From: Bacillota bacterium
GTDB taxonomy: Bacteria > Bacillota > Limnochordia > DTU080
Reading direction: 5' to 3'
Assembly (NCBI GenBank): GCA_012840225.1
Contig: DULU01000082.1
Span: 1-63,658 of the forward strand
Length of the DNA stretch: 63,658 bases
A program made the translations under genes and the position numbers. Below the pieces are notes generated by a model. It made no database searches. It was not told where the DNA came from and worked only from the letters and a program-made list of their open reading frames with translations. This document shows, piece by piece, positions 11,020 through 16,962 of this stretch (its first letter is position 1; every line of letters starts with the position of its first letter).

Positions 11020-11825
11020 TGGGGGAGAAGGCGGCCGACGACATGCATCTTTTTGCTCTGAGCGACTTGCATTTGCCCGGCGGGCAAAAAAAACCCATGG
11101 ACATATTCGGCTCGGCATGGAGCGATCACCAGGAGCGCATCGCTGCCGCCTGGCGGCGCCTGGTGCAGCCTGAGGATTGGGTGCTGTTGCCGGGCGATCT
11201 CTCCTGGGCCATGACTCTGGAAGAGGTAAAAGAAGATCTGGCTTATTTGGGCGACCTGCCGGGCTATAAAGTGATCCTGCGCGGCAATCATGACTATTGG
11301 TGGCAGGCTATCGGTAAGGTGAGGAAAGCGCTGCCTCCCGGGGTATTTGCCCTGCAAAATGACTTCCTTTTGATTCCGGGGAGCGGGGAGACGGCGATAG
11401 CCGGCTCCAGAGGCTGGGAGCTGCCGGGCGTGGCTGGTAGGGATGGCATGAGTGGTAGGGATGGCATGAGTGGCAGGGATGGCATGGGTGGCGGTGGTGA
11501 GGCCGGGACACCGGACCAGGATGAGAAAATATACCGACGTGAACTGCTGAGGCTGGAATTGTCGCTGCAGGCTGCCCGCCGGGCCAACTGCCGGAGGCTG
11601 ATCGTCATGATGCATTTCCCTCCGGCCGGGAGCGACGGCGCCCCCACCGGTTTCACAGACTTGTTGGAAAGATATGAGGTAGAGATGTGTGTTTACGGCC
11701 ATCTCCACGGGCCCGCCGTGGCGCATCACCTGCACGGACGCCACAGGGGAGTGGCTTATTATTTGGTCTCGGCGGACGCCGTCGGTTTCACGCCGCTCTG
11801 GTTAACCCGGTTGCAGTCGCCGTAA
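11019..11825 (+). CDS. Metallophosphoesterase (second, different subfamily)
   Basis: Calcineurin-like phosphoesterase with SDLHL, KPMDIFG, LPGDLSW, GNHDYWW, MMHFPP and YGHLHGP as metal-site motifs. About 268 residues from ATG 11019 (TGATG overlap with the previous gene); GTG 11016 and ATG 11043 are alternatives. Residues ~140-160 are a tandem GRDGMS repeat inserted in a loop. Its 3' end overlaps the 3' end of the convergent phoU gene by 67 bases. Substrate unknown. Confidence 0.85.
   Translation: MGEKAADDMHLFALSDLHLPGGQKKPMDIFGSAWSDHQERIAAAWRRLVQPEDWVLLPGDLSWAMTLEEVKEDLAYLGDLPGYKVILRGNHDYWWQAIGKVRKALPPGVFALQNDFLLIPGSGETAIAGSRGWELPGVAGRDGMSGRDGMSGRDGMGGGGEAGTPDQDEKIYRRELLRLELSLQAARRANCRRLIVMMHFPPAGSDGAPTGFTDLLERYEVEMCVYGHLHGPAVAHHLHGRHRGVAYYLVSADAVGFTPLWLTRLQSP
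11436..11489 (+). repeat. In-frame 18-bp tandem repeat inside a phosphoesterase gene
   Basis: Copies of GGTAGGGATGGCATGAGT at 11436-11453 and 11454-11471 are identical. The third (11472-11489) differs at two positions. Each adds GRDGMS. Like the hemW repeat, the unit is a multiple of three and keeps the frame. Confidence 0.88.
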
Positions 11826-12457
11826 ACCAGGTAGCCGACCCGCTCGGCGATATTGGTGGCATGATCGGCGATGCGCTCCAGAAAGCGAGCCACGAGCAAT
11901 AGACTCAAAGCTTGGCCTGCTCTGATCTTGTCGCCGCCTTCCATGATAAATCCCAGCAACACGTCATATAGCTCAAAATAAAGGCGATCCACCGGCAAAT
12001 CGTCCCGGCACACTTTTTCGGCCAATTCCACGTCGCGCCTGACAAAGGCATCCAGGCTGCTGTGTACCATCTGCAGGGCCATGGACGACAGCCTGGGAAT
12101 GTCTATGAGCGGTTTGATCAGCGGCGCTTCACCCAGCTTGAGAGCGACTTCCGCGATGTTGGTGGCATGATCGCCCATGCGCTCCAGATCGGTGATCACT
12201 TTCAGAGCCGTGGTCACGGCGCGCAGATCTCCGGCCAGCGGCCGTTTCAGGGCCAGCAACTCCAGGCAGAGCGCTTCGATCACTTTCTCCAACTGGTCGA
12301 TGTCGTCGTCGCCGGCCACCACTTTTCTGGCCAGGGCTAAATCCTGGGTCATCAGCGCCTTGTCGGCATTGTGGATAGCTTCCTCCACCAAGGCACCCAT
12401 GCGCAAAATATATTGATGAATGGCATCGAGCTCTAACCGGCATCGCCCTTCATTCAT
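11759..12457 (-). CDS. phoU: Phosphate signalling protein PhoU
   Basis: Negative regulator that links the Pst transporter with the PhoR kinase. 232 residues, two three-helix bundles each with the metal-binding motif: ERMGDHATNIAE and ERIADHATNIAE. Start ATG 12457 is preceded on the minus strand by AAGGAGGAG; an upstream extension to 12562 belongs to the previous gene in another frame. It overlaps the ATPase gene by four bases (ATGA), and it ends inside the convergent phosphoesterase gene. No terminator is visible between the two. Confidence 0.95.
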   Translation of the reverse strand: MNEGRCRLELDAIHQYILRMGALVEEAIHNADKALMTQDLALARKVVAGDDDIDQLEKVIEALCLELLALKRPLAGDLRAVTTALKVITDLERMGDHATNIAEVALKLGEAPLIKPLIDIPRLSSMALQMVHSSLDAFVRRDVELAEKVCRDDLPVDRLYFELYDVLLGFIMEGGDKIRAGQALSLLLVARFLERIADHATNIAERVGYLVYGDCNRVNQSGVKPTASAETK

Positions 12458-13263
12458 GGCTGGCTCCTCCTTTTTTCGCTGCCGGCCAAGGCGTAAAGCC
12501 GTCGGTAATCGCCGGTGAGGAAACTCTCGGTGCGCGGATCCCTCGGAAATTCGAAAAGGCACCTGGCACTGCCTGATTCCACCAGTTCCCCATTATATAA
12601 AAAGGCGATCTGCCCGGCTACCCGCCCGGCTTGATCCGGTTCTCTGGTGCCCCAGATGATGGTGGCGAAACCTTCGGCCAGGATGCGCACCACCGCATCC
12701 TCAAAGCGGGCCCGGCTGATGCTGTCGAGGCCGCGGGTAGGATCATCAAGCAGGAGCAAACCCGGTTGCCTGGCGATGGTGCGGGCCAAGCACAAAAGCC
12801 TGAGCAGGGTAGGATCGGCATGGTTATAGGGCTGATGCAGGCGATCCCTCACCTCTTTCCACAACCCCACCAAGCGCAGAGCCCACTCCACCTTGGCAGC
12901 TACCTCTTGTGCCGGGCTGGAGAGGGAACGCAGAGAGACGGCCACTTCGCTGTAGGGAGTGCGGGAAAGGGAGACGGGAATCAAAAGGCCCACTCGGTGC
13001 CGCAGCTCTTTGACCGATATATTATGATTGTCAATGCCGTCTATCAGCACCTGACCGGTGATGCTCATACCCGGCACTTCTGCCAGGAGCCCGTTGGCCG
13101 CCCATAAAATTTCCGACTTACCGGAATTCACCGGCCCCATGAGGGCTAGAGTGCCTCCGGCGGTGACGGAAAGAGAGACATTCTTTACCCGAATGCCGTC
13201 GCGGCAGCGCACTGTGAGTTCCTTGATCTCAAGGCTCAAAGGTTGCGGTGGCGGTGTGAGCAT
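12454..13263 (-). CDS. Degenerate PstB-like ABC ATPase lacking the signature motif
   Basis: 269 residues that align throughout with PstB (phosphate ABC transporter ATPase): SITGQVLIDG, KELRHRVGLL, LWKEVRDRLH, DDPTRGLDSIS, QAGRV, FLYNGELVESG and RTESFLTGDY correspond to PstB landmarks. Walker A (GPVNSGKS, residues 43-50) and the Walker B aspartate D173 are kept. The Q-loop Gln is Pro96, the LSGGQ signature is ADPTL (149-153), the catalytic Glu is Asp174 and the switch His is Arg207. Such a protein should bind nucleotide but is unlikely to drive a normal transport cycle. Coupled to both neighbours (TAATG upstream, ATGA downstream). I infer a regulatory role with PhoU. Confidence 0.85.
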   Translation of the reverse strand: MLTPPPQPLSLEIKELTVRCRDGIRVKNVSLSVTAGGTLALMGPVNSGKSEILWAANGLLAEVPGMSITGQVLIDGIDNHNISVKELRHRVGLLIPVSLSRTPYSEVAVSLRSLSSPAQEVAAKVEWALRLVGLWKEVRDRLHQPYNHADPTLLRLLCLARTIARQPGLLLLDDPTRGLDSISRARFEDAVVRILAEGFATIIWGTREPDQAGRVAGQIAFLYNGELVESGSARCLFEFPRDPRTESFLTGDYRRLYALAGSEKRRSQP

Positions 13264-14693: not shown

Positions 14694-14760
14694 AGTATAA
14701 CACTATGGAATTGTATGAACGGGCTATCGTAGTGGAAAACCACCGTAAACTAATTGTTAA
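14694..14760 (-). promoter_or_regulatory. Candidate Pho box and -10 for the Pst-like genes
   Basis: Read on the minus strand, TTAACA (14755-14760), TTTACG (14744-14749) and TTTCCA (14733-14738) are direct repeats with 5-base spacers. This is the 11-base periodicity of PhoP/PhoB boxes in Firmicutes. A -10-like TATACT lies at 14694-14699 with no good -35 box, as expected for an activated promoter. The repeats overlap the end of phoR. The distance to the -10 is longer than usual, so this is tentative. Confidence 0.35.
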
Positions 14761-16274
14761 CTATGGCTGCCCGGAGAAGCGGGATTGTCGGGAGCTGTCT
14801 GGCTGCCCGGAGCGGCCGTATTGCCTGCAGCCGCCGAATTGTCCGGACTGGCAGGACCATTCGGAGCAACAGGACCATGCGGACCGGCAGGACCATTCGG
14901 GGCAGCAGGTGGCCGGGGGGCGGCCCTCAGGGTCAAGGTGAAGGTGCTGCCTTTGCCGACTGTGCTGGCTGCTTTCACCTTTCCCCCGTGGCGCTCGGCG
15001 ATCAGCCTGACGATGGCCAGACCCAGCCCGGTGCCGCCGACGGATCTGGAGCGAGCCTTATCCACCCGGTAAAAACGGTCGAACAGGCGGTTCAGGTGGG
15101 AAGAAGGAATGCCCGGGCCGGTATCGTGGACGTTGATGTCCACCAGCCCTTCTGCTTCCCGGGCTTCCACCGTGATCCACACCCTGCCGTCTTCAGGCGT
15201 ATACTTAATGGCATTGTCCAGCAGGTTGAGCAGCGCTTGGTGCAGCATAGCCTTATTGGCTTTGATCAGGATGTTGCGCTCCACATGTACTTCGGTCTTG
15301 ATGCGGCGGTTCTGGGCCAGCGGGGTCATCAGTTCCATGACCTGATCGATAGCCTCCGCCACCTCCACCGTCTCCATCGGCACAGGACCGGTCTCGGCTT
15401 CCAGACGGGACAAATCGAGCAGATCGTTGACCAGATTGGCCAGGCGGTTGGCTTCGTTGCTTAAGATAGTTAGAAACCGGCGACAGGTTTCGGTGTCGTC
15501 CATGGCGCCGTCCAGCAAGGTTTCGAGAAAACCCTTGATGGAAGTGATGGGAGTGCGCAATTCATGGGAGACATTGGCCACAAATTCCCGCCGCATCTCC
15601 TCCAGCCGCCTCAGCTGGGTGACATCGTGGAGGACGGCCACCGCTCCCGTGAGCTCGCCTTTGGTGGAACGCACGGGGGCTAAATCGGCCTGAAAATGGC
15701 GCATGGGCACATCAAAGGTCTCCAGTTCCAGGGTGATGGGTTTGCCGTTGGCGGTCACATCCTGCATGGCCCGCGCCAGTTTCTGGTGCCGGATGACCTG
15801 CAGCACCCCCTGGCCGACCACAGCGGCGGCTTTCACTTCGAAAAGCCGCTCGGCGGCGGGATTGATGAGCACAATGCGTCCACTGCTGCCCAAAGTGATC
15901 ACGGCGTCGCGCATGCTGGTGAATACGGCGCTCAGCCGGTTGCGGTCATTCTCCAGCTGCGCCAGGCGCTCGCGCACGCGCATGTTCATCTCCTCTAAAG
16001 CCGCCGTCAGCCGCATCAACTCCACGCCGGGGGCGGTGGAAAGCTGGGGCAGCGTGCCCTCAGGCAAAGTTTCCACCGCTTGCTGCAGCTGCTGGAGGGC
16101 GTGGCGTATGGTGCTGATTCTTTTCATTAATATGGAAAAAAGATAGATGCTAAAGAGCAAGCTGAAGAAGGCCACCAGCAGGTGACCGCTGCCGGCGGCC
16201 ACCCCCGCTCCCAGGGCGGCCACAATGCCGCTGGCCGCTATATATAAAATGCCCGGACGACGAAATTCAAACAT
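14757..16274 (-). CDS. phoR: PhoR-type sensor histidine kinase
   Basis: 505 residues. Two adjacent membrane segments (about 8-27 and 31-50) leave almost no extracellular loop. A linker/HAMP-like helix, a PAS domain (about 112-220), the H-box VSHELRTP with His237, and the ATPase domain (NLLDNAIKYTPE, DTGPGIP, GGTGLGLAIV) follow. The last ~55 residues are a Pro/Gly/Ala/Asn tail (APNGPAGPHGP and on) absent from normal kinases. It overlaps phoB by eight bases. In related systems PhoU and Pst signal through the PAS domain, which fits the neighbouring genes. Confidence 0.93.
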   Translation of the reverse strand: MFEFRRPGILYIAASGIVAALGAGVAAGSGHLLVAFFSLLFSIYLFSILMKRISTIRHALQQLQQAVETLPEGTLPQLSTAPGVELMRLTAALEEMNMRVRERLAQLENDRNRLSAVFTSMRDAVITLGSSGRIVLINPAAERLFEVKAAAVVGQGVLQVIRHQKLARAMQDVTANGKPITLELETFDVPMRHFQADLAPVRSTKGELTGAVAVLHDVTQLRRLEEMRREFVANVSHELRTPITSIKGFLETLLDGAMDDTETCRRFLTILSNEANRLANLVNDLLDLSRLEAETGPVPMETVEVAEAIDQVMELMTPLAQNRRIKTEVHVERNILIKANKAMLHQALLNLLDNAIKYTPEDGRVWITVEAREAEGLVDINVHDTGPGIPSSHLNRLFDRFYRVDKARSRSVGGTGLGLAIVRLIAERHGGKVKAASTVGKGSTFTLTLRAAPRPPAAPNGPAGPHGPVAPNGPASPDNSAAAGNTAAPGSQTAPDNPASPGSHS

Positions 16275-16962
16275 TGTGCGGTTCCTGTTCGATAAATTTA
16301 TAGCCCAGACCGTGCACCGTCTCTATATACTTCGGCGACTGGGGATCATCATTTATTTTTTGCCGCAGGCGGCGAATATGCACATCCAGGGTGCGGGTGG
16401 CGCCGGCGAAGGAATAGCCCCAAACTTTTTCCAGAAGGTAATCACGTTCCAGGACCTGACCCGGAGAGACGGCGAGCTCCCTGAGCAGCTCAAACTCCTT
16501 GGGCGTCAGATCGATAAGCTTCCCGCCCACCCGCACCTCATGGCGCAGGTCGTCGATCACCAGGTCGCCGATGGCGATCACGTGGTCATCCTGCAAGGTG
16601 GGAGCCCGGCGCAGGACCGCCCTCACTCTGGCCAGGAGTTCTTTGGGACTAAAGGGCTTCACCATATAATCGTCAGCCCCCAGATCCAACCCTTTCACCC
16701 GGTCGGCTTCCTCACCGCGGGCGGTGAGCATGATCACCGGCGTGGCTCCTTCCCGGCGGATCACCCGGCACACTTCGTAGCCGTCCGGCTCCGGTATCAT
16801 CAGATCGAGAATGACCAGATCAGGGCGTTCCGAGCGCCAAAGCTCCAGGGCTTTTTGCCCATCCTCGGCCACGATTACCTCATAACCTTCTTTTTTCAGA
16901 TTGAAGGCGACGAGCTCCACAATGGCCGGCTCATCATCGACGATCAAAACTTTGTTAGACAT
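16267..16962 (-). CDS. phoB: PhoB/PhoP-type response regulator
   Basis: OmpR-family regulator of 231 residues: receiver domain with D9, D10, phospho-acceptor D53 and YMVKPF, then the winged-helix DNA-binding domain ending RTLDVHIRRLRQKI and VHGLGYKF. ATG 16962 is chosen because AAGAGGAGG lies upstream and the protein starts MSNKVLIVDDE; a longer frame to 17394 runs into mtaB. First gene of the minus-strand cassette, divergent from mtaB. The name PhoB rests mainly on the phoR/phoU context. Confidence 0.93.
   Translation of the reverse strand: MSNKVLIVDDEPAIVELVAFNLKKEGYEVIVAEDGQKALELWRSERPDLVILDLMIPEPDGYEVCRVIRREGATPVIMLTARGEEADRVKGLDLGADDYMVKPFSPKELLARVRAVLRRAPTLQDDHVIAIGDLVIDDLRHEVRVGGKLIDLTPKEFELLRELAVSPGQVLERDYLLEKVWGYSFAGATRTLDVHIRRLRQKINDDPQSPKYIETVHGLGYKFIEQEPHNV

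Follow-up and report, generated by a model that had tools for sequence, protein, structure and literature searches.

The window analysed here, the whole 63,658-nucleotide stretch of Bacillota DNA, carries an apparent operon of five genes in the order phoB-phoR-P0002-P0001-phoU, all on the minus strand. The response regulator gene phoB (16267..16962) encodes 231 aa from an ATG at 16962 and is followed by the histidine kinase gene phoR (14757..16274), whose product has PAS, HisKA and HATPase domains, and by the gene of a membrane protein of 464 aa without a Pfam family (P0002; 13263..14657). Next lies a 269-aa ORF with an ATG start (P0001; 12454..13263), here called pseudo-PstB, and last phoU (11759..12457), which encodes 232 aa from an ATG at 12457. 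The stop of P0002 and the start of pseudo-PstB overlap as TAATG, and the stop of pseudo-PstB and the ATG of phoU as ATGA, with a strong ribosome-binding site at each. The phoU product scores 200 bits against the PhoU cut-off of 130 and is linked to PhoB/PhoR. There is no pstS at the locus.

Pseudo-PstB is PstB-derived: PstB is its nearest relative by both sequence and fold, while its score and motifs place it outside the PstB equivalog. The top NCBIfam model, the best of 166 families, is PstB TIGR00972, which matches the full length of the protein (11-252) with 144 bits, below the 343-bit cut-off. The nearest PDB sequences are those of E. coli PstB (9k3x_C and 9k3s_C, ~30% identity), and the same chains are the nearest folds to the AlphaFold model (pLDDT 90.9; TM 0.88-0.91, rmsd about 2 Å); 9k3s and 9k3x are E. 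coli PstSCAB structures of 2026. A sequence-only reading of this DNA had described a PstB paralogue that keeps Walker A and Asp173 and has lost four other elements of the ATPase, and alignment with E. coli PstB and with orthologues confirmed the motif losses. Walker A (GPVNSGKS, residues 43-50; minus strand 13114..13137, like the following positions computed from the ORF) and the Walker B Asp173 (LLLLDD) are retained in the ORF and its orthologues. ADPTL occupies residues 149-153 (12805..12819), where LSGGQ is expected, the catalytic Glu is replaced by Asp174 (D173-D174; 12742..12747), and the switch His by Arg207 (12643..12645) within an invariant TREPDQAGR. The Gln of the Q-loop is lost as well, but not by the proposed substitution with Pro96: in both the gapped phmmer alignment to 9k3x_C and the MAFFT alignment this loop has a two-residue deletion (GLLI--P versus GMVFQKP), which removes the Gln, and P96 pairs with the conserved Pro that follows it. 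A further loss is that of the PstB A-loop aromatic (LYYG). All of the motifs are kept in 15 of the 15 canonical PstBs of the same alignment, 14 of them from the class. From its motifs, pseudo-PstB is predicted to have lost ATPase activity.

The operon is not an oddity of one assembly. Orthologues of P0002 are found in two other genomes (G001 and G002) of 73 in the class, both members of the same family (f1), and both have the identical five-gene order and identical PstB losses: all three proteins are without the Q-loop Gln, LSGGQ, the catalytic Glu and the switch His. No orthologue was found in which signature and Glu are normal, and damage in a single genome is rejected by these two cases. 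The orthologues score 128 and 149 bits against TIGR00972. The three pseudo-PstBs are 54-57% identical, close to the 57% of PhoR, with PhoU at 65%; GPVNSGKS, D174 and R207 are invariant among them. The dN/dS ratio is below 1 in the pairs with measurable dS, which is weak evidence because synonymous sites within f1 are mostly saturated.

We searched the rest of the genome for canonical Pst components. No PstB above the TIGR00972 cut-off is encoded anywhere in this assembly, which is about 97% complete, nor does PstS have a match there at E 1e-12; for PstC there is a weak match and nothing better. A canonical PstB elsewhere, with pseudo-PstB as its spare copy, is thus rejected, as no match exceeds the cut-off. 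A 246-bit match (C46) was also rejected as PstB: it adjoins amino-acid-type transporter genes, and similar scores occur in nearly every relative. G001 is likewise without a detectable canonical PstB or PstS. The term paralogue from the sequence-only reading should therefore be used with caution: in these two genomes the canonical counterpart is undetected, which leaves pseudo-PstB as the only Pst-like ATPase here. The genome also encodes a Na/Pi cotransporter that contains a PhoU domain (C34). G002, on the other hand, has a separate canonical pst cluster (L095), so that this genome has a working PstB alongside the pseudo form. In this cluster phoB, phoR, pstB and phoU lie on one strand and pstC-pstA on the opposite strand; no pstS is nearby, and the PstS match sits on another contig. 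All genomes of f1 and of the second pseudo-PstB family (f3, below) are multi-contig assemblies, 91-99% complete.

The membrane protein P0002 could not be placed in a known family: it has no Pfam or NCBIfam match above cut-off, and its two orthologues have no Pfam match either. By profile evidence its N-terminal half is probably a remote relative of the PstC/PstA-type permeases: compared with a pooled PstC+PstA alignment, it gives an hhalign probability of 84 (E 8e-6 for the single pair; 0.46 for the reversed control). For the C-terminal half, profile-profile comparison detects no permease homology. Two EAA-loop-like ALGL stretches, one in each half and ~257 residues apart, suggest that P0002 is a fused PstC-PstA relic with a putative permease as its C-terminal half. 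The AlphaFold model is weak (pLDDT 58.8, pTM 0.68); its sole high-probability fold match in the PDB is a chain of E. coli PstSCAB (9k3x_B), with a probability of 0.97 but an E of 1.7. Identity among the P0002 orthologues is 28-31%, so the protein diverges much faster than pseudo-PstB, PhoR and PhoU. Outside f1, none of the 73 class genomes contains an orthologue (three fragment matches, E 0.002-0.005), and none was found in 398 phylum genomes.

In another family of the order (f3; G004 and G005) pseudo-PstB and PhoU form a single protein of 463-470 aa, encoded at L097:6602-8014 and L099:4111-5775. The fusion gene occupies the same slot as P0001, with phoR on one side and metallophosphoesterase-rsmE-prmA-dnaJ on the other, and no permease gene lies between phoR and the fusion in either genome. 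Residues 1 to ~235 are the ABC domain, and the remainder is PhoU (TIGR02135, 166-174 bits). The ABC domain, which aligns with P0001 at E 1e-10, keeps Walker A as GP(E/Q)GAGKS and Walker B as LLIDD; its signature and Gln are lost, and His is replaced by Arg. Among the matches listed for the class and for the 398 phylum genomes, no PstB-PhoU fusion occurs outside f3. Covalent fusion in G004 and G005 argues for a contact between PstB and PhoU. The numerous lost catalytic residues might also be read as those of a pseudogene on its way out, which we regard as highly improbable: the gene is intact in three f1 genera and, as a fusion, in two f3 genera, it overlaps and is translationally coupled with its neighbours, and it is constrained about as strongly as phoR, with dN/dS at 0.26 in the ABC portion of the fused protein. 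The suggestion that selection maintains a non-hydrolysing PstB is supported by a state common to the three f1 genomes and to sister families, and by conservation close to that of the neighbouring PhoR.

Degenerate PstBs are found in two further settings. In G018 (family f11), the cluster phoB-phoR-pstC'-pstA'-pstB'-phoU (L133:6118-11353) is without pstS; its PstB' retains Glu but neither Walker A (here GDRNSGIL) nor the Walker B Asp, signature or His. These losses are more extreme than those of P0001. A canonical PstB is encoded elsewhere in the G018 genome. In the 11 genomes of family f8 the gene order is pstC-pstA-pstB'-phoU, with no adjacent pstS at the loci examined (including L173, L174, L175 and L177). 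A PstS match is missing from every one of the 11, two of which are listed as 100% complete, and this recurrence makes the absence more secure here. The f8 PstB' is a milder form and is intact in 10 of 11 genomes, with Gln replaced by Arg, an LSPGQ signature (LSPGE in one), Glu replaced by Asp and His kept or replaced; in the eleventh it is split by an apparent frameshift. Its dN/dS is about 0.04-0.07. No such PstB' was found outside f8 in the phylum sample, where f8 members score 507-510 bits and the next match 388. The f8 system may still transport in an unusual way, or it may represent an intermediate step in the conversion to signalling discussed below. Several points speak for P0001 and P0002 as a transporter that still moves phosphate or another solute by unorthodox catalysis: the membrane protein is retained in f1, the f8 versions have intact EAA loops and a largely preserved signature, and a Glu to Asp change may leave some ABC proteins with residual activity. 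We nevertheless consider transport quite improbable for the f1 pair, as a homodimer would lack Gln, signature, Glu and His at each of its two composite sites, the binding protein is absent, the permease is fast-evolving, and the fusion form does without one.

Phosphate signalling is separable from transport in E. coli (PMC5775613), where PhoU binds both PstB and the PAS domain of PhoR (PMC4423584). The PstB signature mutant Q160K is transport-dead and signals phosphate sufficiency, and E179Q signals starvation (PMC5775613). P0001 combines both kinds of change, Q160K-like and E179Q-like, with further ones. The explanation we favour, and hold to be probable, is that a Pst transporter has become a transport-dead partner of PhoU and PhoR that serves signalling only; within a Pst complex, P0001 is probably the signalling half. 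Retention between PhoR and PhoU, together with the fusion in the sister family, suggests that the old pump was kept as a signalling part only. The homology, the operon, the conserved losses, the selection, the missing pstS and the sister-family PhoU fusion are shown by the analysis, and from them we infer the absence of hydrolysis and transport, the contact with PhoU and PhoR in this species and the identity of the signal. The shared losses and the fusion point in the direction of the locked regulator that had been proposed from the sequence. The literature searched yielded no account of a degenerate PstB or of PstB fused to PhoU, an absence that is no proof.

Pseudo-PstB and the decayed PstC/PstA-type membrane protein would form a transport-dead Pst relic, held at the membrane with its nucleotide-binding domain (NBD) presented to PhoU, and PhoU would relay to the PAS domain of PhoR, provided that the PhoU/PhoR contact also exists in this species. 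Lacking the signature, Gln, Glu and His, P0001 should not run an ATP-driven import cycle; instead of turnover, either PhoU (Pi or metal) or a ligand of the retained P-loop would determine its output. The open "sufficient" state would be the likeliest default, because the ATP sandwich is not expected to close in the absence of the signature, and by analogy with E. coli PstB(Q160K) the default output would most likely be PhoR phosphatase. A Pst relic need not signal, however, since PhoU of M. smegmatis functions without Pst (PMC12301784).

Within the signalling-only explanation, the remaining P-loop can be given two roles. As an ATP or energy-state sensor, the NBD would bind ATP or ADP unhydrolysed, with its occupancy read by PhoU/PhoR. 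The invariance of GPVNSGKS and the Walker B Asp in f1, with GP(E/Q)GAGKS and LLIDD kept in f3, fits such a role, and PhoR of Salmonella responds to an intracellular phosphorus signal (PMC10055408); the A-loop aromatic and the Q-loop are lost, however, the signature that closes the sandwich is missing, and we hold this sub-form to be possible but doubtful. The earlier idea of nucleotide binding without hydrolysis is accordingly supported in part, by the retained Walker A and Walker B Asp of f1 and f3, and weakened by the loss of the A-loop aromatic and Q-loop; nor is nucleotide binding a general requirement, as G018 has lost the P-loop itself. As a pure scaffold, also no more than tentatively proposed, the protein would merely anchor PhoU to the membrane beside PhoR, with the P-loop as a structural leftover. 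The G018 form keeps its operon without Walker A, the Walker B Asp and the signature, and the f3 fusion dispenses with a permease; against this, GPVNSGKS is exactly conserved in f1 despite an overall identity of 54-57%, and f3 has no membrane partner to anchor to.

In BceAB-type modules, an ABC transporter with a working ATPase serves as the sensor for a histidine kinase. Sensing through an ABC protein to a kinase would be similar here, except that the ATPase of P0001 is predicted to be dead. With PstB of PstSCAB (TIGR00972; 9k3s, 9k3x), P0001 shares full-length homology, fold, adjacency to phoU and the Walker A and Walker B Asp, and it differs by the missing A-loop aromatic, Q-loop Gln, LSGGQ, Glu, His and pstS. 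The partners are those of the E. coli Pst-PhoU-PhoR complex in which Q160K and E179Q were described (PMC5775613), here in one operon, and P0001 would be a natural equivalent of a transport-dead, signalling-competent E. coli PstB mutant. Unlike in those mutants, the losses of P0001 are natural, multiple and fixed, the permease is decayed, and the f3 form is fused to PhoU. Functionally unequal PstBs within pst-phoU are also known from the tandem PstB1/PstB2 of Enterococcus faecalis, both of which keep all ATPase motifs and act in import (PMC12096839).

Phosphate sensing by PhoR is a matter of dispute, as is the role of Pst, which might signal through transport, through its conformation or as a scaffold alone: the E. 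coli mutants point to conformation (PMC5775613), M. smegmatis to PhoU alone (PMC12301784). Natural Pst relics that keep the link to PhoU/PhoR but not the chemistry of transport amount to separation-of-function variants produced by evolution, and the fusion offers a single protein, without an adjacent permease gene, for direct study of the PstB-PhoU contact.

A single origin of all degenerate PstBs is neither rejected nor demonstrated by the tree (p-AU 0.27; branches are long). A joint reading of f8, f1 and f3, speculative and rather unlikely to hold as a whole, is that a Pst importer was converted stepwise, possibly once, to a signalling-only module: PstS would have been lost first, then the Q-loop and Glu (f8), then the signature, His and A-loop (f1), and finally the permease, with fusion to PhoU (f3). 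The P-loop of f1 and f3, without adenine stacking, may in that case act as the Pi sensor through direct binding of phosphate or of a phosphorylated ligand. As for the surroundings of the f8 operons, SLH-domain and ExbD/TonB-like genes adjoin them at L171, L174 and L175, neighbours that suggest a cell envelope with an outer membrane.
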